Of a DNA stretch of 64,000 nucleotides, positions 20,933 through 63,588 are shown piece after piece. Each line of letters begins with the position of its first letter. Position 1 is the first letter of the stretch. A program made the position numbers and the translations under genes. This stretch comes from Fulvivirgaceae bacterium JP3-4 (lineage in GTDB: Bacteria > Bacteroidota > Bacteroidia > Cytophagales > Cyclobacteriaceae), in contig JARKND010000001.1 of the NCBI GenBank assembly GCA_029309925.1, forward strand, positions 992,001-1,056,000. Direction: 5' to 3'. The notes beneath the pieces were generated by a model. It was not told where the DNA came from and did not search any database. It was given only the letters and a program-made list of their open reading frames with translations.

Positions 20933-22036
20933 ATGAAAAATGTCCTGGTGGCACCACTCGACTGGGGACTGGGACATGCGACCCGGTGCATCCCGATCGT
21001 GCGTGAGCTCCTGAAGAAAGGCTGCAACGTTTCCATTGCAGGCAGTGGTTCTTCCTTGTTGTTGCTCAAGGACGAGTTCCCAAAACTCCAGCACTTCGAA
21101 CTTCAACCGTACAATCCTGTCTATCCCGAAAGGCGAGGAGGCATGGTGTGGAAGATGGCATCACAACTGCCGAAATTTTATCAGGCGATCAAGAAAGAGC
21201 ACGATCAGATCGAGCAGCTCGTGAAGGAAAATAAATTCGATCTGGTGATCTCCGATAACCGATATGGATGTTGGTCCCAACGGGTGCCCTGTGTGTTCAT
21301 CACCCATCAGAGCAACATACTGATGCCAAAAAGATTCGGATGGCTTTCCCCCCTTGTCAGCCTCATCAACAAAAGACTGATGAAGAAGTTCGACTATTGC
21401 TGGATCCCGGATTTCCCGGATGGCAACAACCTTTCGGGAAACCTGAACAGGTTCAGCAAGCATGAAAAAGACAGGTTCAGATTTATTGGTACGTTGTCGC
21501 GATTCAAGGCTTCGGGCAGGAAGCGCGAGGTGTTGTACGATGCAACCATCATCATTTCCGGCCCCGAGCCGCAGCGATCGATTTTCGAAAAGATCGTGAG
21601 ACTGCAACTGGGCGCTTCCGATATTCGATATTGCCTTGTGCGCGGTGCTTTCAATCCGGCTGAGCGGTCCATGGTACCAAATATCCACGATTACCTCGGC
21701 ACCGAAAAACTTCAGGATGTCATTGAAGTATCAAGGATTGTGGTGGCGCGAAGTGGTTACAGCACGGTGATGGACATGGCCGCGCTTGGAAAGAAAGTCA
21801 TCTTTGTTCCAACGCCCGGGCAGACCGAACAGGAATATCTGGCAAGACGTCTCCACGCAGCGGGCATTGCTTTTTCATGTCCGCAACATCAGTTCGATTT
21901 GCAGTATGCACTGGTTGAATCACGGAACTTCACCGGCTTCAGAGACTTTCCAGCAGAATCAGGTTTACTGTCTGATGCGATAGATTCAGTGTTGAACGTG
22001 AGACGCGTAGTCAAAATCTCCTCGCAAAAAATTTAG
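20933..22036 (+). CDS. MurG-like glycosyltransferase (GT28-like)
   Basis: 367 residues, starting 1 bp after the deacetylase stop. The N-terminal VAPLDWGLGHATRCIPIVREL is the G-rich loop typical of MurG/GT28 proteins and the C-terminal half has SRIVVARSGYSTVMDMAALG and VPTPGQTEQEYLARRL, the donor-binding signature. Probably transfers a sugar to a lipid or wall acceptor. Forms an operon with the phosphatase and deacetylase. Its 3' end overlaps the convergent gene by 4 bp. Confidence 0.85.
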   Translation: MKNVLVAPLDWGLGHATRCIPIVRELLKKGCNVSIAGSGSSLLLLKDEFPKLQHFELQPYNPVYPERRGGMVWKMASQLPKFYQAIKKEHDQIEQLVKENKFDLVISDNRYGCWSQRVPCVFITHQSNILMPKRFGWLSPLVSLINKRLMKKFDYCWIPDFPDGNNLSGNLNRFSKHEKDRFRFIGTLSRFKASGRKREVLYDATIIISGPEPQRSIFEKIVRLQLGASDIRYCLVRGAFNPAERSMVPNIHDYLGTEKLQDVIEVSRIVVARSGYSTVMDMAALGKKVIFVPTPGQTEQEYLARRLHAAGIAFSCPQHQFDLQYALVESRNFTGFRDFPAESGLLSDAIDSVLNVRRVVKISSQKI

Positions 22037-23349
22037 ACTACCGGGAATTTCCATGGTGAACGGTAGTTTGGCTTCAACAACGCATTTGCTTTCTCATCGT
22101 TTTTGAATTTTCCTTTCTCCGCATCCCAGAAAATCTTGTTGCCGGTGCGGTAAGCAATGTTGCCCATATGGGCCACAAGCGCAGAATTGTGTCCGTACTC
22201 GATATCACAGATTGGTTGCTGACGCGATTTCACACACTCAATAAAATTCCTCACATGTTTTTCATGATCTTTCGGATCGGAAGGCTGCAATGGAATCAGT
22301 TCGGTCTTCGCTGCGTTTTTGTTGTCAGTCTCTGCAATCACTTCCCAGCCTTCGCGGTTCACAACAAGCGTCCCATTGTTTCCGACAAATGCCACACCGT
22401 AGTTCCTTCCGTAGATTCCTTTCTGAATTCCACCGGCATGATCCCATTCCAAGGTAAATTTTCCGAAATCATACAGCACATTCAGGGTGTCCGGAGTTTC
22501 AATGCAATTCTCAGGATAGGCATAAATGCCACCGGACGCCATAACGCTTAGGGGTGTCGTTACATTCATCGCCCATAACGGTATGTCAAGCAGATGCACG
22601 CCCCAGTCAGTCATGAGTCCTCCGCCCTGGTTCCAGAAGTGGCGCCAGCTTCCGTGAAAACGGTTGGCATTGAACGGAGTCTTCGGGGCCGGGCCCAGCC
22701 ATGTATCATAGTCAACACCGGCCGGAGGAGCCGTGTCGGCTACTTTTGGATTTCCCTTTCCGTATTCAAAATATCCCCAAGTTCTAATCTTGCGAATGGT
22801 TCCAAGTTTACCTGACTGCACCAGGGCAACCACATCCTGCCAGTGCTGCCCGCTGCGTTGCTGCTGACCGACCTGTACAACGCGTTTATACTTGCGCGCT
22901 GCTGCGAGCATCACCTGGCATTCTGCAATACTGTTCGCGAGCGGTTTCTCCACATAAACATCTTTCCCCGCCTGGCAAGCCTCAACCGTTGGAAGACAAT
23001 GCCAGTGATCGGGCGTACCAATGATCACCACGTCAATGTCTTTATCGTCCAGCACCTTCCTGTAATCTTTATACAATTTTGGCGATTTCCCTGTGAGTTC
23101 CAGCACTTTTGCGGCACGCTCATTCAACACCTTGTCATCGACATCGCATAAGGCAACGCACTCAACCTCCGACATTTTCAGATGGTCTTCGAGATTATAA
23201 AACCCCATCCCGCGACAGCCGATCAGCGCAACCTGAATCTTGTCGTTCTGCGAAACACCAGCATGCAGCTTCGAATAAAGCAAGGGAGTCAGTGCGGAAG
23301 CTGCGAGCACTGAGCCGGAGAGGTGGAGAAAATTACGTCTTGAACTCAT
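22033..23349 (-). CDS. Gfo/Idh/MocA oxidoreductase with Tat signal
   Basis: 438 residues from MSSRRNFLHLSGS; an ATG 24 bp upstream is possible. The N-terminus is a twin-arginine signal (SRRNFLHLSGSVLAASALTP), so the folded NAD(P)-binding protein is exported. Rossmann motif LIGCRGMGFYNLEDHL, then GTPDHWH and the catalytic-lysine motif VEKPLANSIAECQ. Substrate is likely a sugar or inositol derivative; exported members of this family are common in Bacteroidota and use tightly bound cofactor. No pathway partner is adjacent. Confidence 0.9.
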   Translation of the reverse strand: MSSRRNFLHLSGSVLAASALTPLLYSKLHAGVSQNDKIQVALIGCRGMGFYNLEDHLKMSEVECVALCDVDDKVLNERAAKVLELTGKSPKLYKDYRKVLDDKDIDVVIIGTPDHWHCLPTVEACQAGKDVYVEKPLANSIAECQVMLAAARKYKRVVQVGQQQRSGQHWQDVVALVQSGKLGTIRKIRTWGYFEYGKGNPKVADTAPPAGVDYDTWLGPAPKTPFNANRFHGSWRHFWNQGGGLMTDWGVHLLDIPLWAMNVTTPLSVMASGGIYAYPENCIETPDTLNVLYDFGKFTLEWDHAGGIQKGIYGRNYGVAFVGNNGTLVVNREGWEVIAETDNKNAAKTELIPLQPSDPKDHEKHVRNFIECVKSRQQPICDIEYGHNSALVAHMGNIAYRTGNKIFWDAEKGKFKNDEKANALLKPNYRSPWKFPVV

Positions 23350-23547
23350 ATGTGTCTGGTTGGTGTGTACCAATATACAATTCTGGCATGGAAAAATAAT
23401 AGAGAGAATAGTATGGAACTGTCGCGCCCGAAGTGGACGTCTATTTTCTAAGTATGTTTAATTTTGCGTACGCGTGGATCTCCTTTTGATTTTTGATATT
23501 TGGAGCATGGTATTTTAATTCACCATCTTTGCCCGAAATTTGATCCC

Positions 23548-24348
23548 ATGCCAGACGCTTCTATAGACGGAAATTTTTTTTTCACAGACTCTCATGCGCA
23601 CATTTATTCCGATGAATTCAAGTCTGATCTGGTCGATACGCTTGAGCGGACGAGGTCTGCGAACGTGCTCAAACTTGTTATGCCCAATGTAGATCACACG
23701 TCCATTGACGCGATGATGGAGATCGAAGCCAAATGGAAAGGAATGTGTTATGCCACGATGGGCTTGCACCCCTGCTCGGTCAAAAAAGATTTTCAGCGCG
23801 AGCTGTACATCGTTGAAGACTGGCTCTCGAAGAGAAAATTCTCGGCAGTAGGAGAGATGGGCACCGATATGTACTGGGACAAAACGTTGTGGAACGAACA
23901 GGTCGAAGCTTTTAACATCCAGGTGGCGCTCGCGAAAAAACACAAGCTCCCGATCATCATCCACTGCCGTGAGACCCTTGACGAAACAATCAGGCTCGTG
24001 GAGGATGTTCAGGACGGAACGCTCACAGGCGTGTTTCACTGCTTCGGGGGAAGTGCTGCGCAGGCGGAACAAATTTCCAAACTCAAATTTTATGTTGGCA
24101 TTGGAGGGGTGGCGACCTTCAAGAAGGCAGGTCTTGATCTTGTACTTCCCGAGGTGCCGCTGGAACAAATCGTACTTGAAACGGATAGTCCATACCTTGC
24201 CCCGGTTCCCCATCGTGGAAAGCGCAATGAGCCGTCATATATTCCAATCATTGCTCAGAAAATTGCAGAAGTTAAGCGGATCAGCGTGGAGGAGGTGATG
24301 AAACAAACAACGGCCAATTCATTCACACTATTTCCATCAATCGCTTAA
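23548..24348 (+). CDS. TatD-family hydrolase
   Basis: Metal-dependent deoxyribonuclease family. I start at the ATG giving MPDASIDGNFFFTDSHAHIYSDE (266 residues); the longer frame from 23500 adds residues without family likeness. Metal ligands: DSHAHIY, a Glu in VGEMGTD, HCRE, FHCFGGS and the terminal LETDSPYLAPVPHRGKRNEP. CATCTTTGC just upstream resembles a -7 box with a very short leader. Confidence 0.92.
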   Translation: MPDASIDGNFFFTDSHAHIYSDEFKSDLVDTLERTRSANVLKLVMPNVDHTSIDAMMEIEAKWKGMCYATMGLHPCSVKKDFQRELYIVEDWLSKRKFSAVGEMGTDMYWDKTLWNEQVEAFNIQVALAKKHKLPIIIHCRETLDETIRLVEDVQDGTLTGVFHCFGGSAAQAEQISKLKFYVGIGGVATFKKAGLDLVLPEVPLEQIVLETDSPYLAPVPHRGKRNEPSYIPIIAQKIAEVKRISVEEVMKQTTANSFTLFPSIA

Positions 24349-24370
24349 CTTGTAGCCACAACCAGCACCC

Positions 24371-25435
24371 ATGCAGTTCAAACAAGTTGTCATTAACACC
24401 GCCCTTCCGCAATCGCCAAAGGGAAGAGTGCTCATTATATATACAGGAGGTACCTTCGGAATGACATACGACCAGGATGGCGTGCTCATTCCCTTCGACT
24501 TCGCGCTGATCCTCGAACACCTGCCGACCCTGAGAAATCTAGCGCTTGAACTGACGGTGATCTCATTCGAAAACCCGATCGACTCTTCGAACATCGAGCC
24601 GGCACACTGGCAGGCGCTCGCAACGATCATTTCGAAGAATCACGAAACACATGACGGGTTTGTTGTTCTTCACGGAACAGATACGATGGCGTATACAGCC
24701 TCTGCGCTGAGCTTCATGCTTGAGGGTCTGGCAAAGCCAGTGATCTTTACAGGAGCGCAGCTTCCCATTGCTGAGCCGCGTTCCGATGCCCGTGAAAATC
24801 TCATCACAGCACTTGAAATTGCTTCCGCGAAAAAAGATGGAAAAGCACTCGTGCCGGAGGTATGCATTTATTTCGATTACGAATTGCTCCGTGGTAATCG
24901 AAGCAAGAAGGTCGAGAGCATGCAGTTTGATGCGTTTGACTCTGGCAATTATCCGCCCCTTGCCAAGGCAGGCGTCAAGATCGATTACAACTTTGCGTAT
25001 ATCCGGGAGGTTAAATCCAACGGAGCACTGAAGCTGCGTACAAAGATCGATGCGAATATTTCTATCCTGAAATTGTTCCCGGGCATTTCCACATCCACGA
25101 TCGAAGCAATTCTCGCCACGAAGAATTTGAAAGCGGTCATCCTTGAGACATACGGATCCGGCAATGCCCCAACTTTTCCAGCGTTGATCAGCGCGCTGGA
25201 GGCTGCCATTGACAGAGGCATTATTGTTGTGAATATTTCACAGTGCTCCGGGGGCATGGTCACCCAGGGCAGATACGAAACGAGCCGTGAGCTGCTACGC
25301 ATTGGTGTGATCGGTGGTGCCGACATGACGACCGAAGCTGCCGTCACAAAACTTATGGTTCTGCTTGGAGAAAATGGAGAATCAAGTGCGCGGGAGTTGA
25401 TTGCCAGGTCGCTGGCGGGCGAGCTCACGGTATAG
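24371..25435 (+). CDS. ansA: Type I L-asparaginase
   Basis: Hydrolyses asparagine to aspartate and ammonia in the cytoplasm (no signal peptide). 354 residues; catalytic Thr motifs IYTGGTFGMTYDQDG at ~26-40 and VLHGTDTMAYTASALSFML at ~97-115, then FTGAQLPIAEPRSDARENL. It follows tatD by 22 bp, probably the same transcript. Confidence 0.94.
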   Translation: MQFKQVVINTALPQSPKGRVLIIYTGGTFGMTYDQDGVLIPFDFALILEHLPTLRNLALELTVISFENPIDSSNIEPAHWQALATIISKNHETHDGFVVLHGTDTMAYTASALSFMLEGLAKPVIFTGAQLPIAEPRSDARENLITALEIASAKKDGKALVPEVCIYFDYELLRGNRSKKVESMQFDAFDSGNYPPLAKAGVKIDYNFAYIREVKSNGALKLRTKIDANISILKLFPGISTSTIEAILATKNLKAVILETYGSGNAPTFPALISALEAAIDRGIIVVNISQCSGGMVTQGRYETSRELLRIGVIGGADMTTEAAVTKLMVLLGENGESSARELIARSLAGELTV

Positions 25436-25507
25436 TTTTCCGTTTTCTTGCAAACCGCTGATTTTCTTGCTTTTTTTGCCGTCCCAATGTCTTAATTGGA
25501 ATCAACT

Positions 25508-25594
25508 GGAGAGGTGTCCGAGTGGTTGAAGGAGCACGCCTGGAAAGTGTGTATACGGGAAACCGTATCGCGGGTTCGAATCCCGCCCTCTCCG
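25508..25594 (+). tRNA. tRNA-Ser (GGA)
   Basis: 87 nt. Acceptor GGAGAGG pairs with CCTCTCC; the anticodon loop CTGGAAA carries anticodon GGA (25542-25544); a long variable arm (TATACGGGAAACCGTAT) marks class II; T arm GCGGG-TTCGAAT-CCCGC. Discriminator G at 25594, followed by CA, so a full CCA is not encoded. The 3' end is the first unit of the tandem array that follows. Confidence 0.97.
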
Positions 25595-26570
25595 CAGAAG
25601 AGCTGCAAGCTACAAGCTACAAGCTTCAAGCCTTGTAAGTCTTGGATGAGACAGGCACCTACCATCGTCATTTCGAGCCTGCAAAATCGATCAGGCGATA
25701 CGATCACCGCGAGAAACCGCCCTCTCCGCAGAAGAGCTGCAAGCTACAAGCTTCAAGCCTTGTAAGTCTTGGATGAGACAGGCACCTACCATCGTCATTT
25801 CGAGCCTGCGAAATTGATCAGGCGATACGATCACCGCGAGAAACCGCGCTCTCCGCAGAAGGGCTGCAAGCTACAAGCTTCAAGCTTCAAGCCTTGTAAG
25901 TCTTGGATGAGACAGGCACCTACCATCGTCATTTCGAGCCTGCAAAATCGATCAGGCGATACGATCACCGCGAGAAACCGCCCTCTCCGCAGAAGAACTG
26001 CAAGCTGCAAGCTTCAAGCCTTGTAAGTCTTCGATGAGACAGGCACCTACCATCGTCATTTCGAGCCTGCAAAATCGATCAGGCGATACGATCACCGCGA
26101 GAAACCGCGCTCTCCGCAGAAGGGCTGCAAGCTACAAGCTTCAAGCTTCAAGCCTTGTAAGTCTTGGATGAGACAGGCACCTACCATCGTCATTTCGAGC
26201 CTGCGAAATTGATCAGGCGATACGATCACCGCGAGAAACCGCGCTCTCCGCAGAAGGGCTGCAAGCTACAAGCTTCAAGCTTCAAGCCTTGTAAGTCTTG
26301 GATGAGACAGGCACCTACCATCGTCATTTCGAGCCTGCAAAATCGATCAGGCGATACGATCACCGCGAGAAAAGGCGATACGATCAGTGCGAGAAACCTC
26401 TCCGCAGAAGAGCTGCTAGCTACAAGCTACAAGCTACAAGCTTCAAGCCTTGTAAGTCTTGGATGACCCAAGCACCTACCATCGTCATTTCGAGCCTGCA
26501 AAATCGATCAGGGCGATACAATCACCGCGAGAAAAGGCGATACGATCAGTGCGAGAAACCTGCCCGGCAT
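25588..26570 (+). repeat. tRNA-linked tandem repeat array (7 units)
   Basis: The tRNA 3' segment CTCTCCGCAGAAG recurs at 25588, 25722, 25849, 25983, 26110, 26244 and 26398, so the period is 127 or 134 bp (154 for the sixth). Each unit then has CAAGCTACAAGCTTC words, CCTTGTAAGTCTTGGATGAG, CATCGTCATTTCGAGCCTGC and GGCGATACGATCACCGCGAG. Units fall into two subtypes (GCAAAATCGATC or GCGAAATTGATC). The 7-bp length differences come from extra CAAGCTT words; the last two units carry an extra GGCGATACGATCAGTGCGAG copy. Open frames running through it are repeat artefacts. Confidence 0.95.
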
Positions 26571-26629
26571 CTTTTATGAACCACTGCTGAAAAAATTTTC
26601 TTTAAATTTCGGCTACTCCACCCTTCACT

Positions 26630-27019
26630 ATGCTAATTCTATTGGTCGATGACGACCCCGAAGATCGTTTAATTTTTGAGGAATCAGTCCATGCAGTTTC
26701 GCCTGATTACAAGTGCATCGGGGTGCGTGATGGAGAAGAGGCATTACAGTATTTGCAACATGATGCTGTGGTACTACCAGACCTTATCTTTCTCGACATC
26801 AATATGCCGAAGCTGGATGGCCGACAAACACTCTCGCTTTTAAAGTCGTCTGACACTTTTAGAAATATTCCAGTGTGCGTCTATACGACTGAAAGTCGCC
26901 CCGTGGAGCGGGACGCGATCATCGAACTCGGTGCACGATGGTTCGTTACCAAACCGGCATCCATTCTTGAGGTTCGGAATTGTATCGCAACCGTTATCAA
27001 AGAAGTAAGTAGCCGATAA
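26630..27019 (+). CDS. Stand-alone receiver protein 1
   Basis: 129 residues, receiver domain only: acidic pocket VDDDPED at 6-12, phospho-acceptor Asp56 in FLDINMPKLDG, Thr in YTTES and Lys in TKPAS. It resembles Rcp1-type single-domain regulators, which act by protein-protein contacts. No kinase is adjacent. It is the first of three such proteins in 5 kb. Confidence 0.9.
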   Translation: MLILLVDDDPEDRLIFEESVHAVSPDYKCIGVRDGEEALQYLQHDAVVLPDLIFLDINMPKLDGRQTLSLLKSSDTFRNIPVCVYTTESRPVERDAIIELGARWFVTKPASILEVRNCIATVIKEVSSR

Positions 27020-27232
27020 GAACCTTGGTCTGCAAGCACCGATTCCAGTAGGTATTCAGCGAGAACTGTTTTTTGAATTTGTGGTTATCCACAGCGTGAA
27101 TTTCATATCATATGGGCATTCGAACCCACCGTGGCTTAGGTTCTGTCTTGTTTTCTCAGTGAATAACTCTCCCAATTGGTGCTGACCTTTGCTCGTCTCA
27201 GCCTGGATGTCTAGCTTTACGCTATCAAACTT

Positions 27233-27637
27233 ATGTCAGAACAGCCCAAAGCCTACATACTTTATGTTGACGATGACCGCGATGATCAGCACATCTTCAG
27301 GGAAGCAATGCAGGCCGTCAGACCCGACCTGCTCTGTAAAATCGCGAGTGATGGCTACGAAGCTTTGAAGTTGCTTGAAACTACCGATCTTCCGATTTGC
27401 ATCTACCTTGACATCAATATGCCGATGATGGACGGGCTTGAAGTATTGGGGAGGATCAAGGAAAATGCACTTCTTTCTGCAATACCGGTCTTCATTTTAT
27501 CTACTTCACGATCTCCAATGAGTGAGAAGCGTGCGATGGATCTGGGTGCAACTGACTACCTCGTTAAACCGAATACATACGGAGCGTACGTTGATTTGCT
27601 CGGTGCATGTTTCGTAGCACATTTTCCGAAAAATTAA
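27233..27637 (+). CDS. Stand-alone receiver protein 2
   Basis: 134 residues, receiver only: YVDDDRDD at 11-18, Asp60 in YLDINMPMMDG, STS and VKPNT. It is similar in style to the neighbours at 26630 and 30962 but not identical to either. A small helical protein gene lies 159 bp downstream. The 213 bp upstream hold no gene; they contain a single perfect DnaA-type 9-mer at 27085-27093. Confidence 0.9.
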   Translation: MSEQPKAYILYVDDDRDDQHIFREAMQAVRPDLLCKIASDGYEALKLLETTDLPICIYLDINMPMMDGLEVLGRIKENALLSAIPVFILSTSRSPMSEKRAMDLGATDYLVKPNTYGAYVDLLGACFVAHFPKN

Positions 27638-27661
27638 TTCTCTTTGGAAGTCATTCTTACA

Positions 27662-27690
27662 ATTCCGCGTGCGTTGCAACACGGAATGGC
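27662..27690 (+). terminator. Possible terminator after receiver 2
   Basis: ATTCCGCGTG pairs with ACACGGAAT with one mismatch, loop ~8 nt, followed by GGCTTTTG. The T tract is short, so this is tentative. If real it would separate receiver 2 from the small gene at 27797. Confidence 0.3.
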
Positions 27691-27796
27691 TTTTGTCATA
27701 AAAATAAAAAACACTCTTCGCTAAGACGTAGTAAATATTTGCACACTGAGACCCATCGTCATATCGGCCTCCCTGCGCCCGGTATAACGAAGCACG

Positions 27797-27985
27797 ATGG
27801 AAAATCACGAACAGCAGACGCTCGTTGCGATCAATGAAAGCAACCAGGTACTGTTAAAAGTACAGCAGTCGAAAAGATCAAATGATGAACTCATCAAACA
27901 ATCAAATCTGGAAATTCAAGACGCTAAAAGGATAATATCAAGGGCTAACCAAATTATCGTTTCAATTACGACACCAGAGCCCTGA
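27797..27985 (+). CDS. Small helical protein A, paralogue of 31627
   Basis: 62 residues, predicted almost fully alpha-helical and rich in Gln, Asn, Ser, Lys. Residues from TLVAINESNQ to ANQIIVSI align without gaps to the protein at 31627, with about 19 of 47 identical positions (my count by eye). Both follow a stand-alone receiver gene. No known domain is recognised; a coiled-coil partner or adaptor is possible. The conserved pairing makes it a real gene rather than a chance frame. Confidence 0.7.
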   Translation: MENHEQQTLVAINESNQVLLKVQQSKRSNDELIKQSNLEIQDAKRIISRANQIIVSITTPEP

Positions 27986-28128
27986 ACTGTTTGAAAAAAA
28001 CTAAGGCTGGAGCTTTACATGGACGATCAGCAATCCCAATTCCTGGGATAAGTTCCGGTTTTGGCAAGGATAAAAAAGCCGCAGGCACTGCGACTTCAGT
28101 TGTTTTGAAAACGGCATCGCGCGAAAGG

Positions 28129-28377
28129 CTACTTTTTATATGCTATAAAGAATGATTTTGTCTTTGCTACAGCATCCTGCAGTGAATCAAAAACTCTGTT
28201 CTGCCCTTTAGCATCCAACAGATAGGTGCTCCATAGGAGGGAATGGTTCGTGTCAAACGCCTTACAGAAAACGGTAAAACCTCGCGATTTTTCATCAGGC
28301 TTCACAAAAAATTTGACGGTAAGTCCGCTTAACGTGAGTTCCTCTGTGTGAACTTCGGTCGTCTTAATATTCATCAT
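28129..28377 (-). CDS. Hypothetical protein (82 aa)
   Basis: Small soluble protein with alternating beta-like segments (LTLSGLTVKFFVKPDEKSRG, then FTVFCKAFD and LWSTYLLDA) and a C-terminal helix. No family recognised. It starts at ATGATG overlapping the stop of the upstream gene 28374-28694, so the two are coupled. The 143 bp between it and the 27797 gene hold no ORF. Confidence 0.55.
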   Translation of the reverse strand: MMNIKTTEVHTEELTLSGLTVKFFVKPDEKSRGFTVFCKAFDTNHSLLWSTYLLDAKGQNRVFDSLQDAVAKTKSFFIAYKK

Positions 28378-28694
28378 AGGAAAGCGGATGTTTCTGCGTC
28401 TAGTATCACATCGTAGTGGTTGTGCGGCTCTATCCCTTTAAAACGATGGTCAATTTCGAATTGCATTATTTTTGATAGCTCGATTGAAACGAGTCTGTGG
28501 CGTACTTCATCGTTCACCAGTACACGGTTGTCTGTTACGTTAACAACTCTTACGAAATGCGGTTGCCATAATTCCCCGACCAAACGCAAATGGACACAAA
28601 CGTTTTGTCCGTTTTCGAGTATATCAATGAGGGTAGACTTCAGTTTTGTTACTGAGTATGCTGATTTTTTCACTTTCTCTTCTTCCCACCGCAT
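28374..28694 (-). CDS. Hypothetical protein (106 aa)
   Basis: From the ATG giving MRWEEEKVKKSAYSVTKLKS; the frame extends upstream to 28838 but that part looks non-coding and an AT-rich TATATTTTG promoter-like word lies ~15-25 bp upstream of 28694. The protein has a helical start and then a beta-rich segment (VCVHLRLVGELWQPHFVRVV, VTDNRVLVNDE). It could be a small barrel domain; no function assigned. Coupled to 28129-28377. Confidence 0.5.
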   Translation of the reverse strand: MRWEEEKVKKSAYSVTKLKSTLIDILENGQNVCVHLRLVGELWQPHFVRVVNVTDNRVLVNDEVRHRLVSIELSKIMQFEIDHRFKGIEPHNHYDVILDAETSAFL

Positions 28695-28908
28695 AGATAC
28701 AAATAGTTCAAAATATAAAAATCTCGTGCCAACCCTTCTCTTATAAGATAATCGGCAGATTGCCGAGACATTTCTGAAGTTATCGTATATGATAAGGCAT
28801 TTATAGTTGGCCATGTAAGGTTCAGCACGGAATAACACCGGGGTAAACAGCCAGGTAACGTATTATTGCTTCAGAATGGGGGTTAATTAGGGATTATTAC
28901 CATTCTCG

Positions 28909-28950
28909 GAGACATTCGCTGCTGGACGGGCAGTTGAATGTCTCTTTTTT
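28909..28950 (+). terminator. Intrinsic terminator without an upstream gene
   Basis: Stem GAGACATTC/GAATGTCTC enclosing an inner CTGC/GCAG stem, followed by six T. No plus-strand gene ends in the preceding 900 bp; the nearest downstream gene starts at 29025. It may end a small RNA or act as an attenuator in the leader of 29025. Confidence 0.7.
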
Positions 28951-29024
28951 ATGTTGAAACTTCGATTATCTTAAAAGATAGTCCTGGCATAAAAATTTTA
29001 CTGCTGGTTATGACATAAATTTCT

Positions 29025-29336
29025 ATGACTTCGCCAGCTACGACCACCGGGACTGCAAACGTCTCATTATCATATATCAAGCGAAATCAGCTACCTTCTT
29101 TACTTCAGAAATTGTCAAGAGTTGACGCTATATCGATAAAAATTAAACGGACAGATCGGCTGAACGAGGGAAATTTTACCACAGTCGCACGCGCTAGTTT
29201 TGCTGTTATTATTCTTCGTGATGTGGTTACGGGAGCCACCGAAATTTTACCGGATATTTCGGTTATCAGTGAATTTCAGCTGAGCGATAACTTCGATCAG
29301 TGCAAAGGCAACGTAGCCTATATCGTCATCCCATAA
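29025..29336 (+). CDS. Hypothetical protein (103 aa)
   Basis: Ser/Thr-rich start (MTSPATTTGTANVSLS), then a Lys/Arg-rich middle and hydrophobic segments (ASFAVIILRDVV). No signal peptide or recognised domain. Codon use looks normal. It is preceded by the orphan terminator at 28909-28950. Confidence 0.45.
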   Translation: MTSPATTTGTANVSLSYIKRNQLPSLLQKLSRVDAISIKIKRTDRLNEGNFTTVARASFAVIILRDVVTGATEILPDISVISEFQLSDNFDQCKGNVAYIVIP

Positions 29337-29580
29337 TACAAGAAATGCATGGTCATGGTTTAAATATTGGCTAACTACACACACCTCCCTGACCGTCTTA
29401 TAAGTCGCTCTAGCAATAGGCGGCTTATTTTTTTTGGTTTGCTGCCCATTGCGGGTTGGTGTTGGCGCTCTGATCGAAATCTGAATTGATACGTGTATTT
29501 CTGAATCCCCAAAAGACCAGCCCGTGAATCCTAAAAAAAATTGCGGGAATATTTTTATATTTAGTCTGATTCCGCGCTGG

Positions 29581-30684
29581 ATGCGATATACAATCCAATT
29601 CATCTTTTTATTTGTACTCGCTGGTGGATGCATCGAACGCTTTGAACTACCTGTCCTCAGCCTCAACCCAATCCTCGTGGTTGATGGCGCTATCACCAGC
29701 GATCCCGGACCATACAAGGTAACACTCTATCGACCTCATGTCACGAACAGGATTATTAAAATACCTGAATACGTAACACAGGCTACCGTTCAGATTTTTG
29801 ACGACCAGGGCAATAGTGAGATGCTCACAGAAACATTGAGCGGTGGCGAATATTACACGTCAGCTAATGGCATGCGTGGTACAATTGGCCGCAAGTATCA
29901 CATAAAAATTGTTACGGCAGATGGGAAAGAATATGCAACACAACCGCAGCTCATGACTGCACCCGGGAGGATTGAAAATCTCCGGTATGAACTTTGGTTG
30001 AACGCACTCAATCGTGACGATGTCTTCAAGCCCCAGCATGCTGTAAAGTTTTTGATTGACTCGAAAGGGGGCGCTGAGCAAAGTAATTTCCTGCGCTGGC
30101 GCTGGACAACTACTTACGAAATCAGGGATGCTCCCCATGAGAAAACGAGAGTGATTAACCGTTCGGGATTGACGGTACCTGATCCGCCTCCCTGCAGCGG
30201 GATGCGACCCGGGTCTAACGGCCTGGAAAGTTTCGGACCTTGCACATGTTGTACATGCTGGGTCGTGAATAACAGCTATGGCGTCCTGCTTTCAAACAAC
30301 AGGTTTTATACATCACGCGAATTTAATGATTTGCTGATGGCAACAGTTCCACTGGAGCCCCGCACCTTCGATCTGCGTTTTCACATTCGTGTCGATCAGT
30401 TGAGTCTCACGGAAGAAACTTACCAGTATTGGAAACTCGCTCATGCACAGGAGATCGGAAACGGAAGCTTGTTTGTGCCTAACGCGATTCGCATGCAGGG
30501 GAACGTGTTCAGCCTAACCAATCCGGATGAGCACGTACTCGGTGTCTTTTCGGTCGAGGGTATAACTTCCGCATCAATGTTTATTAATTCGCGCGAGCTC
30601 CCATACGAAGCGTTGATGGAAGAGCGAAAGGAATCATGTCTTACATTCCCGCGCTCCACCAATGTGAAACCGCCTTTCTGGTAG
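29581..30684 (+). CDS. DUF4249 lipoprotein
   Basis: 367 residues from MRYTIQFIFLFVLAGGCIER; the lipobox LAGGC directs lipidation and outer-membrane export. The beginning of the mature part (LPVLSLNPILVVDGAITSDP) and the body match DUF4249, a Bacteroidota family usually encoded beside a TonB-dependent receptor. No receptor is present here. An unusual Cys cluster GPCTCCTCW lies near residue 220. The frame upstream of 29581 is unlikely to be translated. Confidence 0.85.
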   Translation: MRYTIQFIFLFVLAGGCIERFELPVLSLNPILVVDGAITSDPGPYKVTLYRPHVTNRIIKIPEYVTQATVQIFDDQGNSEMLTETLSGGEYYTSANGMRGTIGRKYHIKIVTADGKEYATQPQLMTAPGRIENLRYELWLNALNRDDVFKPQHAVKFLIDSKGGAEQSNFLRWRWTTTYEIRDAPHEKTRVINRSGLTVPDPPPCSGMRPGSNGLESFGPCTCCTCWVVNNSYGVLLSNNRFYTSREFNDLLMATVPLEPRTFDLRFHIRVDQLSLTEETYQYWKLAHAQEIGNGSLFVPNAIRMQGNVFSLTNPDEHVLGVFSVEGITSASMFINSRELPYEALMEERKESCLTFPRSTNVKPPFW

Positions 30685-30961
30685 CCGAAGGCTGTTATCA
30701 TTCATGATAATATTGCTTTAGTTAAGCACGGTTGAACATGCTGTTCCTTATGTCAATCGTGAGTATTTACATTGATTTCATCGGTTTTGAAAATTGAAAA
30801 TAAAAGCGGGCAGGAGGCGTAGGTAATGCCTGCATATTTCAGTACCTTCATTTAAGCAAACCATTTACCTCTACTTCCCAACAACACTCACTGAAGTTCT
30901 TCTAGGTGGTACGTCCCGCTGAATGGCCTTGAGGCCAATGTCGAATTTAAGCCACCTGGAT

Positions 30962-31636
30962 ATGAATGGGCGCACCAGACCTGCCTTATTTTTAATCATT
31001 GATGACGACTCTGACGATCGCGAGATTTTTGTGTCAGCAATCAGGGACGTGGCCCCGGATACCGTGTGCAATCAATGTGCTGACCCCGAACAATTTCTTC
31101 TGCATTCATCGAAGGAACCCGCGCCAGATGTGATCTTCGTTGACATCAATATGCCAAAGATGGATGGCTTCCAGTTCATCGCGGAGGCAAGCAAGAACGG
31201 AATATTAAACCATAGCAAGGTTGTGATGTATTCCACGTCACGCAGTTCTGCCGACTTGAACAAAGCAAAAGCATTAGGCGCGCATAGCTTCATTACAAAA
31301 ACCAACACGTATCCTGAACTCTGTGAGCAACTTAAAAAATGTCTGTCATCGATTACCGTTGGCGGTGAACACAAGGTACAACATATCTCGGACGCAATCG
31401 CGCAAGTGTTAGTGGCGCGCGGGGAATACAAAACTATCAACGAAGCAAAGTCTGCGCTGTATGATACGTTTTGTAAATCTTTTCCCAAATGGAGCTATGA
31501 TGAATGGGACGAAGGCCTCTCCGATCAGGCCTTTGCTATTCTTACGAGAACGTTGTCAAAAATTCCACTCACCGAACTGAAGATATTAATTCTTGATTTG
31601 ATCCCTGTAGTGCGGAAATTGAGGTCGTGGCGATGA
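30962..31636 (+). CDS. Receiver protein 3 with C-terminal extension
   Basis: 224 residues from MNGRTRPALFLIIDDDSDD; in-frame ATGs at 30923 and 30938 are possible. Receiver domain at ~8-128: Asp61 in FVDINMPKMDG, STS, and TKTNT (Thr instead of the usual Pro after Lys). The remaining ~95 residues (from about 135, VQHISDAIAQVLVARGEYK) form a helical domain that I do not recognise and that is not a known DNA-binding domain. The stop overlaps the start of the small helical protein gene at 31627. Confidence 0.88.
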   Translation: MNGRTRPALFLIIDDDSDDREIFVSAIRDVAPDTVCNQCADPEQFLLHSSKEPAPDVIFVDINMPKMDGFQFIAEASKNGILNHSKVVMYSTSRSSADLNKAKALGAHSFITKTNTYPELCEQLKKCLSSITVGGEHKVQHISDAIAQVLVARGEYKTINEAKSALYDTFCKSFPKWSYDEWDEGLSDQAFAILTRTLSKIPLTELKILILDLIPVVRKLRSWR

Positions 31637-31878
31637 CGCGGTTACCCATGCAATCACCGGAAGAAAAAACAATCATTGCGCTCAAACAAAGCAACGAGGT
31701 GATTATGCAGGTGAAGCAGTCGAGGAATTCGCAGGATGCGCTGATCCATCGGTCCCTCGAAGAGATAGCCGACTCGCGAGATGCAATAATGAAGGCAAAC
31801 GCTGCACTGGATCGCTCGCGTTCATTTCAGAAGTTATGGACCGCCTTGTCATTCCTGGTTGCCGGTATCACAGTATAA
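31627..31878 (+). CDS. Small helical protein B, paralogue of 27797
   Basis: 83 residues; overlaps the end of receiver 3 by 10 bp, so the two are translationally coupled. The centre (IALKQSNEVIMQVKQSRNSQ onwards) is ~40% identical to the 27797 protein over 47 residues. The C-terminus (LWTALSFLVAGITV) is hydrophobic and might be a short membrane tail, absent from the paralogue. Starts at the second or third Met (MTRLP, MQSPEE) are also possible. Confidence 0.7.
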   Translation: MAMTRLPMQSPEEKTIIALKQSNEVIMQVKQSRNSQDALIHRSLEEIADSRDAIMKANAALDRSRSFQKLWTALSFLVAGITV

Positions 31879-32090
31879 CTTTTCGTTATTTTGTGATCTG
31901 ATTGAAAGCTGCGTCACTATTTCTATTGCAGGAAACACGTGTCATTCAGGAACAAATTTGCTGGCCTTTAATAGTATGCTGTCTGGCTGCCCGTAGCTTT
32001 CACCTCACACCACCGACAATCGTAATTCTTAAATTGCAGCACTCTGACCGATCGGTTACTTTTTACGCCCGTAATCGAATCAAGTCCGCA

Positions 32091-32585
32091 ATGAAGCAAA
32101 AGCAACTCATTATTTCATGCCTCGGCTGGCTCGTGGTGCAATTCGTTTCCAGCCGGTTTATTCTTGACTATAGCTTCAACCAGAGTCTCTTCAACTCACT
32201 TTTTTCTACGGGCTTCTTCGCGTTTGTTGCGTTCTACCTGATACCGAAATTGGCGAAACGTGAAGAAAAGAAACTTGAGAGATCGCTACCGTCTCTGCAG
32301 CTTATACCAGGCGAAATTGTACTGCTGGCCGCTCCCGCCAACAGCTGGAACGGAGTTGAAAGCATTGCGGGGAAACTTACACTCACCGACAAGCGCCTTA
32401 TTTTTCGATCCCTAAAGTCGGATAAGGTTCAGGATTTCGACCACGCATCAATCGCTTCTGTTAATCCGCATCCAAAACTGGAAAGAGGGATTGAACTCAC
32501 ATCAGCCGAGAATACCCGTTATATTTTCCTTGTCCATCCGCGCAGGCACTGGATCAAACTGCTTAATGACAGGGTTATTGCATAA
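32091..32585 (+). CDS. Membrane protein with GRAM/PH-like domain
   Basis: 165 residues from MKQKQLIISCLGWLVVQFVS; the longer frame from 31902 looks non-coding before this Met. Two membrane helices at ~5-60, then a PH-like region: LIPGEIVLLAAPANSWNGVE, IAGKLTLTDKRLIFRSLKSD, which resembles GRAM/PH-like bacterial domains of membrane proteins. Function unknown. An ACCGATCGGT palindrome lies 35 bp upstream of the ATG. The 212-bp stretch 31879-32090 is otherwise featureless. Confidence 0.65.
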   Translation: MKQKQLIISCLGWLVVQFVSSRFILDYSFNQSLFNSLFSTGFFAFVAFYLIPKLAKREEKKLERSLPSLQLIPGEIVLLAAPANSWNGVESIAGKLTLTDKRLIFRSLKSDKVQDFDHASIASVNPHPKLERGIELTSAENTRYIFLVHPRRHWIKLLNDRVIA

Positions 32586-32722
32586 CCATAAGCTAGTTGT
32601 TGCATGTAGTGTTCACTAACGCACCTCACATTAGCCTTGCGCTGAGAAATTTTTTGTCCTTCCGGCATCCGCTCAATCTCTGTCGAAAAGTTTCTATCTT
32701 GCTATGAATCTCACTGGCCAAA

Positions 32723-34075
32723 ATGATGACGACAGCAACAAAGCTCAACGATCCTAAAACTGTTCGCGCCTGGACCATGTACGACTGGGCTAACTCCGTG
32801 TACTCACTGGTCATCATCACGGCAATTTTTCCAATATATTACAAAGCAGTCGCAGTTGACAACGGAAGTGATGTCATCAATTTCCTGGGCTATCAAATCC
32901 AGAATTCAAATTTGTATTCATACGCCTTGTCGCTGTCGTTTCTGATTGTGGCTGCAATCCTGCCGTTGCTATCTGGTGCGGCCGACTATACCGGCAACAA
33001 AAAAGTTTTCATGAAAGCCTTTGCCTGGACGGGCAGCATTGCATGTATGGGTTTGTTTTTCTTCACTGACCTTGAAACCGTTCCGCTTGCAATCTTCCTC
33101 TCGATCATCGCCAGTATCGGTTATTCAGGAAGCCTTGTCTTTTACGATGCGTTTCTTCCCGAGATCGTAACTTCAGACCGATATGATGCGACCAGCGCGA
33201 AGGGATATTCAATGGGCTACTATGGCAGCGTTCTGCTGATGGTGATATGCCTTGTTCTGATTCTTGGTCACGAAACCTTCGGCATTACCAGTGGTCTTGC
33301 TTCGCGCATTTCATTCGTGCTGGTGGGCTTGTGGTGGATGGGATTTTCGCTGATTCCCCTTCGGAGACTTCCCGACAATCCTTATAACCGAAAACCTTCC
33401 AACGACATCTGGGCAAAGGGCTATCAGGAAATTGCGAAAGTGTGGAGAAGCCTGAAGGAGCAACGCGATCTGAAAAAATTCCTGCTTGCCTTTTTCTTCT
33501 GGAACATGGGCGTGCAGACTGTGATGTATCTCGCAACCTTGTTCGGAACTGATGTTCTGCAATTGAAAGATGACACGCTCATTCCCACGGTTGTTGCCAT
33601 TCAGCTGCTAGGTGCAGTGGGAGCCTGGGCCTTTTCGCGGCTCTCCATGCGCAGCGGAAATCGTTTCGCACTCATGACAATGATCACCATCTGGATCGGC
33701 ATTTGTGTCACCGCTTACTTCATTACGACCGCCCTACATTTTTATATTATTGCTGCCGTTGTGGGGCTTGTGATGGGTGGCATCCAGTCGTTGTCCCGGG
33801 CAACCTATTCGAAGCTCATCCCTGAGAATACGATCGATCACGCCTCGTACTTCAGCTTTTACGATGTGACGTACAACCTCTCGATCGTGTTCGGAACGTT
33901 TTCATACGGCTTTATCAATCAGCTTACAGGAAGCATGCGCAACAGCGCGCTGGCGCTGGGTGTATATTTTGTAATCGGAATGATCGTGTTACTTACTGTA
34001 AAGTCTTCCAACCTGCTCGGAAAAAAAAACGAAGTTGAAGAAGAAGTGCTCAGTACCGAAGATGTTTTACAGTAA
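32723..34075 (+). CDS. UMF1-family MFS transporter
   Basis: 450 residues, about 12 membrane helices. The N-terminal motif VRAWTMYDWANSVYSLVIIT and the later MGGIQSLSRATYSKLIPE are typical of the UMF1 (Atg22-like) family of MFS permeases. Substrate unknown; yeast Atg22 exports amino acids. The Glu-rich tail is cytoplasmic. The 3' end overlaps the AMP nucleosidase gene by 26 bp in convergent orientation. Confidence 0.9.
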   Translation: MMTTATKLNDPKTVRAWTMYDWANSVYSLVIITAIFPIYYKAVAVDNGSDVINFLGYQIQNSNLYSYALSLSFLIVAAILPLLSGAADYTGNKKVFMKAFAWTGSIACMGLFFFTDLETVPLAIFLSIIASIGYSGSLVFYDAFLPEIVTSDRYDATSAKGYSMGYYGSVLLMVICLVLILGHETFGITSGLASRISFVLVGLWWMGFSLIPLRRLPDNPYNRKPSNDIWAKGYQEIAKVWRSLKEQRDLKKFLLAFFFWNMGVQTVMYLATLFGTDVLQLKDDTLIPTVVAIQLLGAVGAWAFSRLSMRSGNRFALMTMITIWIGICVTAYFITTALHFYIIAAVVGLVMGGIQSLSRATYSKLIPENTIDHASYFSFYDVTYNLSIVFGTFSYGFINQLTGSMRNSALALGVYFVIGMIVLLTVKSSNLLGKKNEVEEEVLSTEDVLQ

Positions 34076-36749: not shown

Positions 36750-37805
36750 GAGAGCGAAGTCGGGAGCGCTAAACGTTTTTGTTCCTATTGGATCAAATAT
36801 GATGGTCTGCTCGGCTTTTGCAACAGTGAGTTGTAGTTCACTTTGGGCTGCGTTGTAATTTGCATTGCCTCCCTGATTTGCAATCAGAATGACGGTACCA
36901 GCACCAAGGATCGTTGCTGCATTACCATCGCAGCAACGATATTTTCATTACTGGATTCAAAGATTATTGGCAGTCCGCTGTTGGCTGAGGCACTCAAGGT
37001 AAAGGCTTGGTCACCGAAGATTTTTGTTCCCACCGGATTAAAAGTGATGATCTGCTCGGCCTTTGCAACAGTGAGTTCTAGTTCACTTTGGGCTGCGTTG
37101 TAATTTGCATTGCCTTCCTGATTTGCAATCAGAATGACGGTACCAGCACCAAGGATCGTTGCTGCATCACCATCGATAGCAACGATATTTTCATTACTGG
37201 ATTCAAAAATTATTGGCAGTCCGCTGCTGGCTGAAGCACTCAAGGTAAAGGGTTCATCACCAAAGTTCTTTACAGATACCGGATCGAAAGTAATTTGTTG
37301 ATCTGCCTTAGCTACCGTCAGTTCGCGATGAACCATGGGTGCCGCGTCATACAGTAGATTTCCATTTTGTGAAGCAGTGATTGTAACATTGCCTGCTGCC
37401 AGAATCGTCACTTGGTTCCCAACTATTGTTGCAACATTTTCGTCACTGCTTTGAAAGGTCACTGGCAGTTGTGAACTCGCCTGTGCCGTTAAAGTAAAAT
37501 TTAGATCACCGAAAGTTTTTGCAGATAATTCGCTGAATGTGATTGTCTGGACACCCTTATTTACTGTGAAGGTTTGCTCCACAATGTCGGCTGGTGTGAA
37601 ATCAGCATTGCCAGGCTGGGAGGCTGTAATCGTAACTTCACCAACACCTACAATCGTCACAACATCGCCAGTTATCGTTGCCACACTTGGGTTGTTTGCC
37701 TCAAAGACTACTGGCAAACCTGAACTCGCAAAAGCTGAGAGGACGAAGGGGCCATCACCAAAAGTTTTGTTTGGAATGGGTTCAAAGGTAATTGCCTGGT
37801 CAACC
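35580..37805 (-). repeat. Nine tandem ~240-bp coding repeats
   Basis: Nine units of about 78-82 residues, each beginning QxITFxxIxxKTFGD and containing SSGLPVxFES, VATVxGN and TITAxQxGNxNY. They resemble the bacterial Ig-like/MBG-type repeats of secreted adhesins. Units at 36806-37020 and 37051-37266 are nearly identical in DNA, which points to a recent duplication; the frameshift is in the former. Confidence 0.85.
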
Positions 37806-49122: not shown

Positions 49123-49440
49123 TGAAAAAAACCAGGCACCAATAACCAAAGGGAGACCGACTATTGGAACATCGGTACTCACTGTTTGGAATTTGATATT
49201 GATTATTGGAATTTCTTTTTGACCTCCAAAAAAGATCAGGCACCAATGACCAAAACTCAAATGGGACCGACTATTGGAACATCGGTACTCACCATTTGGA
49301 ATTTGATTATTAATTATTGGAATTTCTTTTTGGCTTCCAAAAAGAGGACCAGGCATCAATAGCCAAAACCCAAAGCGAGACCACGTTTTGAAACATGGTC
49401 CTTACCATTTGAAATTTGGTTATTGATTATTGGTTATTAC
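49123..49440. repeat. Three tandem hairpin-forming repeats (~110 bp)
   Basis: Three imperfect copies starting near 49130, 49238 and 49347, each with CAGGCACCAATAACCAAA, ACTATTGGAACATCGGTACT and TTTGGAATTTGATTATTGG. CCAATAACCAAA words pair with the TTTGG...TTATTGG words of the same unit. Occupies most of the 438-bp gap between the regulator start and the rnpB 3' end. Confidence 0.8.
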
Positions 49441-49460
49441 TTTTTTGTTTCAAAAAAAGT
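49439..49460 (-). terminator. AT-rich hairpin at the rnpB 3' end
   Basis: ACTTTTTTG/CAAAAAAAGT arms with a 3-4 nt loop lie directly after the RNase P RNA on its strand. It is AT-rich and less stable than a classical terminator but carries its own T tract. Confidence 0.45.
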
Positions 49461-62716: not shown

Positions 62717-63307
62717 ATGACCAAATCGGAGCGCACACGCCAGTTCATTGTTGAGAAAACAGCGCCTCTTTTCAATACGAAAGGATTCGATGGAACGAGT
62801 TTGTCCGATCTGACCGAAGCAACGGGACTCACAAAAGGTGCGCTGTACGGGAATTTTTCCGATAAGGATGAAATTGCCGTTGAAGCTTTCCGGCACTCGG
62901 CAAAAAAAGTGAAGGAAATGGTCAGGGATCATCTGCAAGGAGCCGACACGTATAAGAAGCGGTTGTTGCTGCTGCTGGATTTTTTTGCCCAGTATGTTTT
63001 TCACCCGCCCGTCCCTGGTGGCTGTCCGTTGCTCAACAGCGCCATCGAGGTGGACGATCATCGCACGTCCATGCGCAGGATGGTAAGTTCTGAATTGCTC
63101 GAAACCATTGACTTTATTGCCGGCTTGCTGAGAAAAGGCGTTCGTGCAAAAGAATTCAGGTCAGATATCAAGCCGCGGCAACTTGCGTATACCTTTTTTT
63201 GTTCTATCGAAGGCGCGCTGATGTTCTCAAGGGTTGAAAAATCGAAGGAGCCGATGGACATTATTGTGAAACATTGCAGAGGAATTTTGGATGAAATTTC
63301 GATTTAA
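62717..63307 (+). CDS. TetR/AcrR-family regulator
   Basis: 196 residues from MTKSERTRQFIVEKTAP. HTH at ~28-50: TSLSDLTEATGLTKGALYG. The C-terminal part (VPGGCPLLNSAIEVDDHRTS) is of a common TetR subgroup. Likely represses itself through the palindrome at 62668; it may also control the sugar module or distant genes. The stop codon TAA is inside the first unit of the 7-bp microsatellite. Confidence 0.93.
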   Translation: MTKSERTRQFIVEKTAPLFNTKGFDGTSLSDLTEATGLTKGALYGNFSDKDEIAVEAFRHSAKKVKEMVRDHLQGADTYKKRLLLLLDFFAQYVFHPPVPGGCPLLNSAIEVDDHRTSMRRMVSSELLETIDFIAGLLRKGVRAKEFRSDIKPRQLAYTFFCSIEGALMFSRVEKSKEPMDIIVKHCRGILDEISI

Positions 63308-63480
63308 GATTTAAGATTTAAGATTTAAGATTTAAGATTTAGGATTTAAGATTTAAGATTTAAGATTTAAGATTTAAGATTTAAGATTTAAGATTTAAGA
63401 TTTAAGATTTAAGATTTAAGATTTAAGATTTAAGATTTAAGATTTAAGATTTAAGATTTAAGATTTAAGATTTAAGATTT
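63301..63480. repeat. (GATTTAA)n microsatellite, ~25.7 copies
   Basis: 180 bp of the 7-mer GATTTAA with a single variant unit (GATTTAG). It starts at the last codons of tetR and includes its stop codon. Confidence 0.97.
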
Positions 63481-63510
63481 TTGTCTCAGCGGCTGATCCG
63501 TACTTTCGAA

Positions 63511-63588
63511 TCAACGTATCAACGTATTAACGTATCAACGTATTAACGAATCAACGTATTAACGAATCAACCTATCAACTAATCACTA
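63511..63588. repeat. (CAACGTAT)n octamer repeat, ~10 imperfect copies
   Basis: Units such as CAACGTAT, TAACGTAT, TAACGAAT, CAACCTAT in an 8-bp rhythm, ending 1 bp before the fabF2 ATG, so the repeat occupies the probable promoter or 5' leader of that gene. Confidence 0.85.

Follow-up and report, generated by a model that had tools for sequence, protein, structure and literature searches.

A tandem repeat array behind tRNA-Ser(GGA) of a Bacteroidota bacterium, each repeat opening with the 3' end of the tRNA

Introduction

In E. coli K-12, copies of the tRNA-Tyr 3' end follow tyrV at +163, +341, and +519, i.e., every 178 bp, and are annotated as rttR. tRNA-adjacent RtT RNAs yield Northern signals in Actinobacillus (PMC4986893). 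SegB, a GIY-YIG protein of phages T4/T6, cuts within tRNA genes, with the motif RAWTSGAAC at 23/83 sites, and causes the tRNA to be amplified in tandem together with segB (PMC13096335). By our own comparison, this motif is the reverse complement of GTTCSAWTY, i.e., the tRNA T loop GTTCGAATC. Our literature search, with most subscription journals outside its scope, found no paper on RtT in Bacteroidota and none on tRNA-linked GIY-YIG units of bacterial chromosomes.

Here, we report a tandem repeat array that follows a serine tRNA gene in a bacterium of the Bacteroidota, each repeat opening with the last dozen or so bases of the tRNA. The window is the whole stretch of DNA that was analysed (C1:992001-1056000, 64 kb), and the positions below count from its first base. 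The array is known from one genome; the comparison covers two congeners and relatives in the family.

Results

The array and its parts

Seven tandem units run from 25583 to 26558, behind and overlapping tRNA-Ser(GGA) (Table 1). The T loop of this tRNA, GTTCGAATC, occupies 25574-25582 by pattern, and its CCA is not encoded, as read from the sequence. The original prediction placed CTCTCCGCAGAAG at 25588, 25722, 25849, 25983, 26110, 26244, and 26398, and all seven places were borne out. The count of seven units also stands, but there are six extra copies, not seven, because the first CTCTCCGCAGAAG is part of the tRNA. Beyond these places, neither strand of the whole 64-kb window holds a copy of the 10-mer CTCTCCGCAG. 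TRF gave a period of 134 across 25583-26372 (93% matches) and a period of 261 across 25583-26534 (91%). The bodies of units 1 to 7 (129, 122, 129, 122, 129, 129, and 137 nt) change in 7-nt steps, each of which is one CAAGCTT or CAAGCTA word, in agreement with the predicted growth by such words; the predicted alternation of two subtypes is thus borne out in part. The bodies of units 3 and 6 are identical.

Table 1. Positions of the tRNA gene, the array units, and named parts in the window
Feature	Position	Strand	Description
tRNA-Ser(GGA)	25508..25594	+	ARAGORN (25508-25595); Rfam RF00005, 56 bits (25508-25594)
Unit 1	25583..25716	+	134 bp; opens with the last 12 bases of the tRNA itself
Unit 2	25717..25843	+	127 bp; tRNA-end copy CCGCCCTCTCCGC
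Unit 3	25844..25977	+	134 bp; tRNA-end copy CCGCGCTCTCCGC; body exactly that of unit 6
Unit 4	25978..26104	+	127 bp; tRNA-end copy CCGCCCTCTCCGC
Unit 5	26105..26238	+	134 bp; tRNA-end copy CCGCGCTCTCCGC
Unit 6	26239..26396	+	tRNA-end copy CCGCGCTCTCCGC; extra 24-bp copy (AGGCGATACGATCA..GCGAGAAA) at its end
Unit 7	26397..26558	+	diverged; tRNA-end copy only CCTCTCCGC; 24-bp doubling as in unit 6
Right flank CCTGCCC	26559..26565	+	after the last GAGAAA; near-copy of tRNA CCGCCC; read from the sequence
Heptamer block (GCTGCAAGCTACAAGCTACAAGCTTCAAG) in unit 1	25602..25630	+	genome repeat search
Right half of dispersed palindrome (GTCATTTCGAGCC..GATCACCGCGAGAAA) in unit 1	25664..25716	+	genome repeat search

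Units 1, 2, and 4 have CCGCCC in their tRNA-end copy, units 3, 5, and 6 have CCGCGC, and the copy of unit 7 is shorter (GAGAAACCTCTCC); five of the six extra copies retain 12-13 of the 13 bases of the tRNA end. At the inner junctions of units 2-6, GCGAGAAA is followed by CCGC(C/G)CTCTCC, whereas at the junction of unit 7, GCGAGAAACC is followed by TCTCC (tRNA-end copy CCTCTCC). The right end of the array reads GCGAGAAACCTGCCC, near the CCGCCC of the tRNA.

Composition and distribution of the unit

The array unit is the tRNA 3' end joined to halves of two dispersed repeats. With 40 of 69 candidates scored, at least 56 matches were found in the 5.8-Mb genome: seven are the array units, 47 cover the heptamer part only, and two cover the second half only. 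The heptamer part is dispersed, several of its copies forming inverted pairs; the second half corresponds to a single arm of a palindrome that is also dispersed and has both arms at two other places (L105, L106). Among the scored candidates from the 5.8 Mb, the whole unit was found only in this array. Absence from close relatives, together with no transcript past the tRNA, had been named as a sign of an inert slippage product, and in part this is what we see: neither of two congeners, probably Chryseosolibacter histidini and C. indicus (draft assemblies), has a match to the whole unit, and one congener carries a single RtT-like copy at tRNA-Ser(GGA).

The array sits between an asparaginase gene and a response-regulator gene. 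Thirteen ORFs (22036-34072) were compared with Pfam and gave an oxidoreductase, a TatD DNase, the asparaginase, three response regulators, a DUF4249, and an MFS protein; no integrase or GIY-YIG family was found among the 13, five of which match nothing. PF01541 (GIY-YIG) occurs at nine places in the genome, none of them in the window. The three response-regulator receiver-domain genes (26630, 27233, and 30923) lie close 3' of the array, within 26630-31636. Elsewhere in the window, TRF listed GATTTAA repeated 25.7 times and then an 8/16-bp repeat (63301-63585), a tandem duplication of 245 bp (36776-37265, 91% matches), and a 113-bp repeat in 2.9 copies (49138-49459, 80% matches).

The asparaginase beside tRNA-Ser(GGA) is conserved: the protein is present in 51/59 genomes, its own included, and tRNA-Ser(GGA) in 27 of the 30 asparaginase loci fetched, the window's included. 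A downstream copy of the last nine bases of tRNA-Ser(GGA) was found in 4 of the 26 other loci, two of which (C. indicus, L033, and L051) hold an RtT-like element and two of which (L037, L040) hold a GIY-YIG ORF in between (PF01541 at 53.7 and 56.4 bits). At L057, which is the same place as L196, a GIY-YIG ORF lies 14 nt 3' of tRNA-Ser(GGA) without a 3'-end copy. In some relatives (L034, L035, and L042), a hairpin and T run were read immediately 3' of the tRNA.

Copies of tRNA ends in the genus

Within 600 nt downstream, a 14-nt 3'-end copy (at most one mismatch) was found behind 9/132 tRNAs of three genomes of the genus (4/34, 2/42, and 3/56 per genome); at least 132 tRNAs were taken from stretches of these genomes, and for two of them the DNA ended 8 and 66 nt downstream. 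The window array, with a copy of 12-13 nt, is not counted among the nine. No such copy was found upstream of the 132 tRNAs or in the downstream flanks after single-base shuffling. Copies of the 5' end stand upstream of two, two, and one tRNAs in the three genomes, and downstream of none. In the window's genome, 3'-end copies lie behind Val(TAC), Thr(GGT), Trp(CCA), and Arg(ACG), the last twice in tandem, and 5'-half copies lie in front of Leu(TAA) (five) and Ala(GGC) (two), with GIY-YIG ORFs behind both. A hairpin, TGCTGATCRAAAGCATCAGCA, stands directly 5' of the T loop in the 3'-end copies at Thr(GGT) (L073) and Trp(CCA) (L079); common to two different tRNAs of this genome, it is another type of insert.

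The array could also be an ordinary satellite that merely happened to have its breakpoint within the tRNA end, unlinked to tRNA biology. The rest of the unit consists of dispersed repeats, and the window holds other tandem repeats away from tRNAs, both of which suit such an origin. The 3'-end copies, however, recur downstream only behind several tRNAs, and behind this very tRNA in several genera, and the junctions of units 2-6 and of unit 7 differ while both lie within the tRNA end. We consider a chance satellite very unlikely.

The copy starts inside the 7-nt T loop in 32 of 48 distinct downstream copies, 28 of them at one same base; 15 of the 48 come from loci picked by a pattern that favours a T-loop junction, and when these 15 and three E. 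coli rows are left out, 17/30 copies begin there. In the 48-copy count, the T loop of L073 was misplaced by the regex; by eye its offset is 0. Counted from the T loop's first T, the window copy starts at +8, i.e., just outside the loop. GTTCSAWTY is present in 15/34 tRNAs of the window's genome and, within 25508-26570, in the tRNA only.

RtT-like elements in Cyclobacteriaceae

A landmark pattern made from the genus copies matched 13/196 genomes of the family, and a reversed control pattern gave 0 rows. Among the 26 matching stretches in named genomes, 22 belong to Bacteroidota; in the DNA retrieved, the four outside show no tRNA within 2.5 kb and are likely chance matches, and three Bacteroidota stretches (L149, L155, and L156) likewise show no tRNA. 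Across the phylum, the exact pattern matched 0/395 genomes, only nine of which are of this family; therefore, the class looks restricted, or has diverged elsewhere.

The RtT-like units run in the order of tRNA 3' end from the T loop, tRNA terminator, GGATGAGA..., GGTTCGA...insert...GAGT, and AATCC plus tRNA 3' end, which is also the order of the E. coli rtT repeat (GGAAGGATGAGAAG...GGTTCGA...GAGTAATCCTTCC). The GGATGAGA... segment repeats the T arm imperfectly and in inverted orientation. A MAG has four 3'-end copies in tandem behind Thr(TGT), Cecembia rubra has two in tandem behind Ser(GGA), and C. histidini has three behind Val(TAC); in the Ser and Thr arrays that were read, the units are spaced by 147-173 bp. 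The Rfam RtT model, aligned along its full length, scored three C. rubra units at 32.0, 32.0, and 23.8 bits (E 0.003, 0.003, and 0.32; cut-off 45) and two Thr units at 20.9 and 18.7 bits (E 1.8 and 6), and at the gathering threshold it matched none in ten loci. Conversely, a covariance model was built from 13 elements, all from Bacteroidota; with it, the four E. coli repeats all score 27.6-30.5 bits (E 4e-7 to 2e-6 across 3 kb, with rough calibration). With covariance models pointing in both directions, the Bacteroidota units at tRNAs are predicted relatives of RtT.

At E up to 1e-4, the Bacteroidota model matched 46/196 genomes of the family and 27/84 genera; nine of the 46 genomes supplied training elements. 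A tRNA lies within 700 nt upstream in 24 of 30 model-matched loci, with an exact 12-nt 3'-end copy in 22 of these 24; three of the other six have no upstream tRNA and three were not re-found by regex. When run over the window's whole genome (150 of 976 candidates scored, E up to 10), the model gave at least six matches. Four (E up to 0.02) lie directly behind Val(TAC), Arg(ACG) twice, and Cys(GCA); the other two are on a displaced Ser(TGA) end (E 0.06) and overlapping a tRNA-Leu (E 1.0). The window array is not among them. The tRNA-Ser(TGA) 3' end, terminator, and RtT-like element at C5:869351-876996 (L136) are displaced about 7.5 kb downstream; this stretch is possibly an island, with no obvious integrase in its ORF list by reading. 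Two further RtT-like elements, L110 (G165) and L120 (G119), carry a tRNA-Ser 3' end with no tRNA in the 3-kb locus, and have either moved or been parted from their tRNA.

RNAalifold gave almost no covariation term for 17 elements. A hand-set three-helix fold has 83.7% of cells paired versus 75.4% in shuffles and a covariation of 0.194 versus 0.097 (reached by 0/500 shuffles; versions slid along the alignment, 0.08-0.12). Pairs changed on both sides are not clearly above shuffles (9 versus 7.1, 46/500), nor are further pair types above them (19 versus 17.8, 185/500). Please note that covariation in the closing stem need not mean RNA function, because this stem is made of two tRNA-derived copies. 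Fold z values versus shuffles are -0.06 for a Thr unit and -1.3 for a Cecembia unit, both no better than shuffles, and -2.6 for E. coli.

Comparison of the window unit with RtT and output of the array

Rfam RF00391 gave no RtT row in 25300-26800 at E up to 10 (curated cut-off 45 bits), the Bacteroidota model gave none on the window units at E up to 10, and a model with E. coli included reached at best 7.1 bits in the window, on the tRNA itself. For the landmarks GGATGAGA..TTCGA..GAGTAATCC, the best score of the array units is 22/31, and 31 starts on the two strands of the whole window are at or above it (references 21-31). The local score with the C. indicus element was reached by 175/500 shuffles. 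A decayed RtT-like element was considered for the window unit, in which GGATGAGA, TTTCGAG, and GCGAGAAACC stand in the right order, yet it scores nowhere above background; this reading was rejected by the pairwise score with the C. indicus element, the landmark scan, and the covariance models.

Neither terminator-like sites (0; shuffles, mean 1.7) nor promoter-like sites (0; shuffles, mean 1.1) were found in 25300-26800. Four array units fold as shuffles do (z -0.9, -0.3, 0.0, and -1.4), as do three stretches with the downstream tRNA-end copy or the right flank (z -0.1, -0.1, and 0.7). In two stretches of identical sequence, the minimum-energy fold has a short stem, GGA.GAG/CUCUCC, that is missing from the centroid (z -0.08); it pairs GGATGAGA with the tRNA-end copy in a register that differs from the GGAU/AUCC of RtT. 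Such a stem is missing from the last unit (z 0.65). As regards protein coding, a Pfam search with four ORFs that span the array gave no family at E up to 1; neither of the unit lengths 134 and 127 is divisible by three, although their sum of 261 is.

These results bear on whether the locus is rtT-like, i.e., whether a transcript of the tRNA runs through the array and tRNA-processing enzymes free unit-sized RNAs that act in the cell. The layout is that of E. coli tyrV/rttR, relatives carry RtT-like arrays at tRNA-Ser(GGA), and the Actinobacillus signals are of tRNA-adjacent RtT RNAs; read-through is possible because no terminator-like site lies between the tRNA and 26800, and two stretches form the GGA.GAG/CUCUCC stem in the minimum-energy fold. 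Against these points, the window units are missed by the Rfam and Bacteroidota models at E up to 10, their landmarks stay at background, their folds equal shuffles with the stem out of the centroid, and the array was not found in the congeners. We regard such a locus as unlikely. The family of small RNAs that the original prediction proposed is not supported, given no RtT match, folds like those of shuffles, and absence from two congeners, and we do not think that a functional one is likely. A transcript of the array, should there be one, would be a tRNA trailer that maturation trims away.

GIY-YIG units behind tRNAs

In the window's genome, GIY-YIG ORFs stand behind tRNA-Leu(TAA), twice in tandem, and behind tRNA-Ala(GGC). 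The Leu-linked ORF scores 65.6 bits with PF01541, and a relative of it is present in 47/60 genomes of the family, often accompanied by another copy some hundreds of bases away. Among 30 GIY-YIG loci (one per genome, the own one included), 17 have a same-strand tRNA at most 150 nt upstream, and 10 of these 17 have a 3'-end copy behind the ORF; in some other loci, as read, the ORF comes first and then the tRNA. At C5:565786-566543 (L103:450-2200), tRNA-Leu(TAA) has five tandem 5'-half copies in front, the anticodon stem being recoded (TCCCGA..TCGGGA), and the two GIY-YIG ORFs behind it, equal in score, each have an altered tRNA-Leu copy and a terminator copy. No GIY-YIG ORF was found between the window tRNA and its 3'-end copies, by PF01541 or by Pfam search of the array ORFs, and the window copy, starting at +8, does not begin in the T loop, where the start of copy identity was looked for as a mark of a tRNA-linked GIY-YIG unit.

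Another conceivable origin of the copies is that a small mobile element, either a GIY-YIG unit or a non-autonomous derivative, inserted several times in succession; it would carry its own tRNA 3' end and displace the one already there. An attachment-site duplication had been linked to a single copy with integrase remnants in relatives, and part of this is seen, in that L037 and L040 have a GIY-YIG ORF between tRNA-Ser(GGA) and one 3'-end copy; the GIY-YIG ORFs behind Leu(TAA) and Ala(GGC) and the frequent start of copies in the T loop favour the same origin. The 13 flanking ORFs, however, hold no integrase or GIY-YIG match and the four array ORFs no Pfam match, and the units are 91-93% alike with two identical, therefore more like tandem duplication than separate insertions. 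We hold separate insertions to be quite improbable.

Discussion

We propose, with a probability of about 0.6, that tandem duplication at a tRNA hot spot gave rise to this array, with the 3' end of tRNA-Ser(GGA) as its anchor. The alternative of slippage or duplication seeded at the tRNA end, which the original prediction had also offered, is favoured by the near-repeat CCTGCCC/CCGCCC at the right end and by the distinct junction of unit 7. The hot spot is supported by the 3'-end copies found downstream of 9/132 tRNAs and upstream of none, by those at tRNA-Ser(GGA) in relatives, and by tandem RtT-like arrays there in Cecembia. The tRNA genes of the family, tRNA-Ser(GGA) included, are recurrent sites of 3'-end-bounded units, whether RtT-like, GIY-YIG, or repeat fragments.

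The composition, the junctions, and the identity of units 3 and 6 are read directly from the array, and the events behind them may be pictured as follows. Fragments of two dispersed repeats would have landed directly 3' of the tRNA, and the stretch from inside the tRNA 3' end through the palindrome half would then have been duplicated repeatedly, by slippage or unequal recombination. The first duplication may have used a short similarity, a proposed microhomology between the C-rich end of the tRNA and its near-copy on the right; a second event with another junction would give unit 7, and whole units would later be exchanged. We infer at least two duplication events, because CCTGCCC nearly repeats CCGCCC and because the junction of unit 7 differs. 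The starting break was possibly a T-loop cut, the work of GIY-YIG nucleases linked to tRNAs. The intact tRNA gene stays first in line because every unit opens with the tRNA's own end. Some points count against tandem duplication of this kind. The microhomology (CCTGCCC versus CCGCCC) is short, the window has no GIY-YIG gene, and the copy starts outside the T loop; the 12-13 of 13 tRNA-end bases kept in five extra copies could also be explained by selection.

We infer that RtT-like, GIY-YIG, and window units may share a mechanism. A broader picture, which we put forward tentatively and with low confidence, is that tRNA genes of Bacteroidota host a class of selfish 3'-end-bounded units, in which a resident GIY-YIG family would cut the T loop and repair would make tandem units that leave the intact tRNA first; the RtT RNA of E. 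coli and Pasteurellaceae would be a shared ORF-less derivative, and the window array a young, independent product made from dispersed repeats. With RtT-like elements and GIY-YIG genes with copied tRNA ends now described, it becomes possible to test how RtT and tRNA-end repeats originate, i.e., is a T-loop-cutting nuclease the maker? In the loci tested, the Bacteroidota RtT-like elements (46/196 genomes, one family) fall under the curated Rfam threshold. The array itself suggests that the tyrT/rtT layout can arise afresh from unrelated DNA at a tRNA end.

Comparison with known systems

The phage SegB system (PMC13096335) is comparable in that it cuts tRNA genes, its motif being that of the T loop, and drives tandem amplification; it differs in that the window array has no nuclease gene, and SegB is a phage gene, likened here by its GIY-YIG domain alone. 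The RtT-like arrays of Cyclobacteriaceae sit at the same tRNA-Ser(GGA) in several genera and are likewise tandem units with tRNA 3' ends, but their units include the terminator hairpin of the tRNA and the GGATGAGA..GAGTAATCC element, and the window units are without both. Most likely, the RtT-like and GIY-YIG units are the array's neighbours in kind, and the array itself is no member of RtT. With E. coli tyrT/tyrV, the array shares tandem units behind a tRNA, each with the tRNA 3' end; the tyrT analogy of the original prediction holds for this layout, and relatives in the family carry RtT-related units at this same tRNA. The window units differ from RtT (RF00391) in giving no model match, in landmarks at background, and in folds like those of shuffles, and from the E. 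coli rtT repeats in being built from two other dispersed repeats. The unit of the window array is new, and its layout is a known one.
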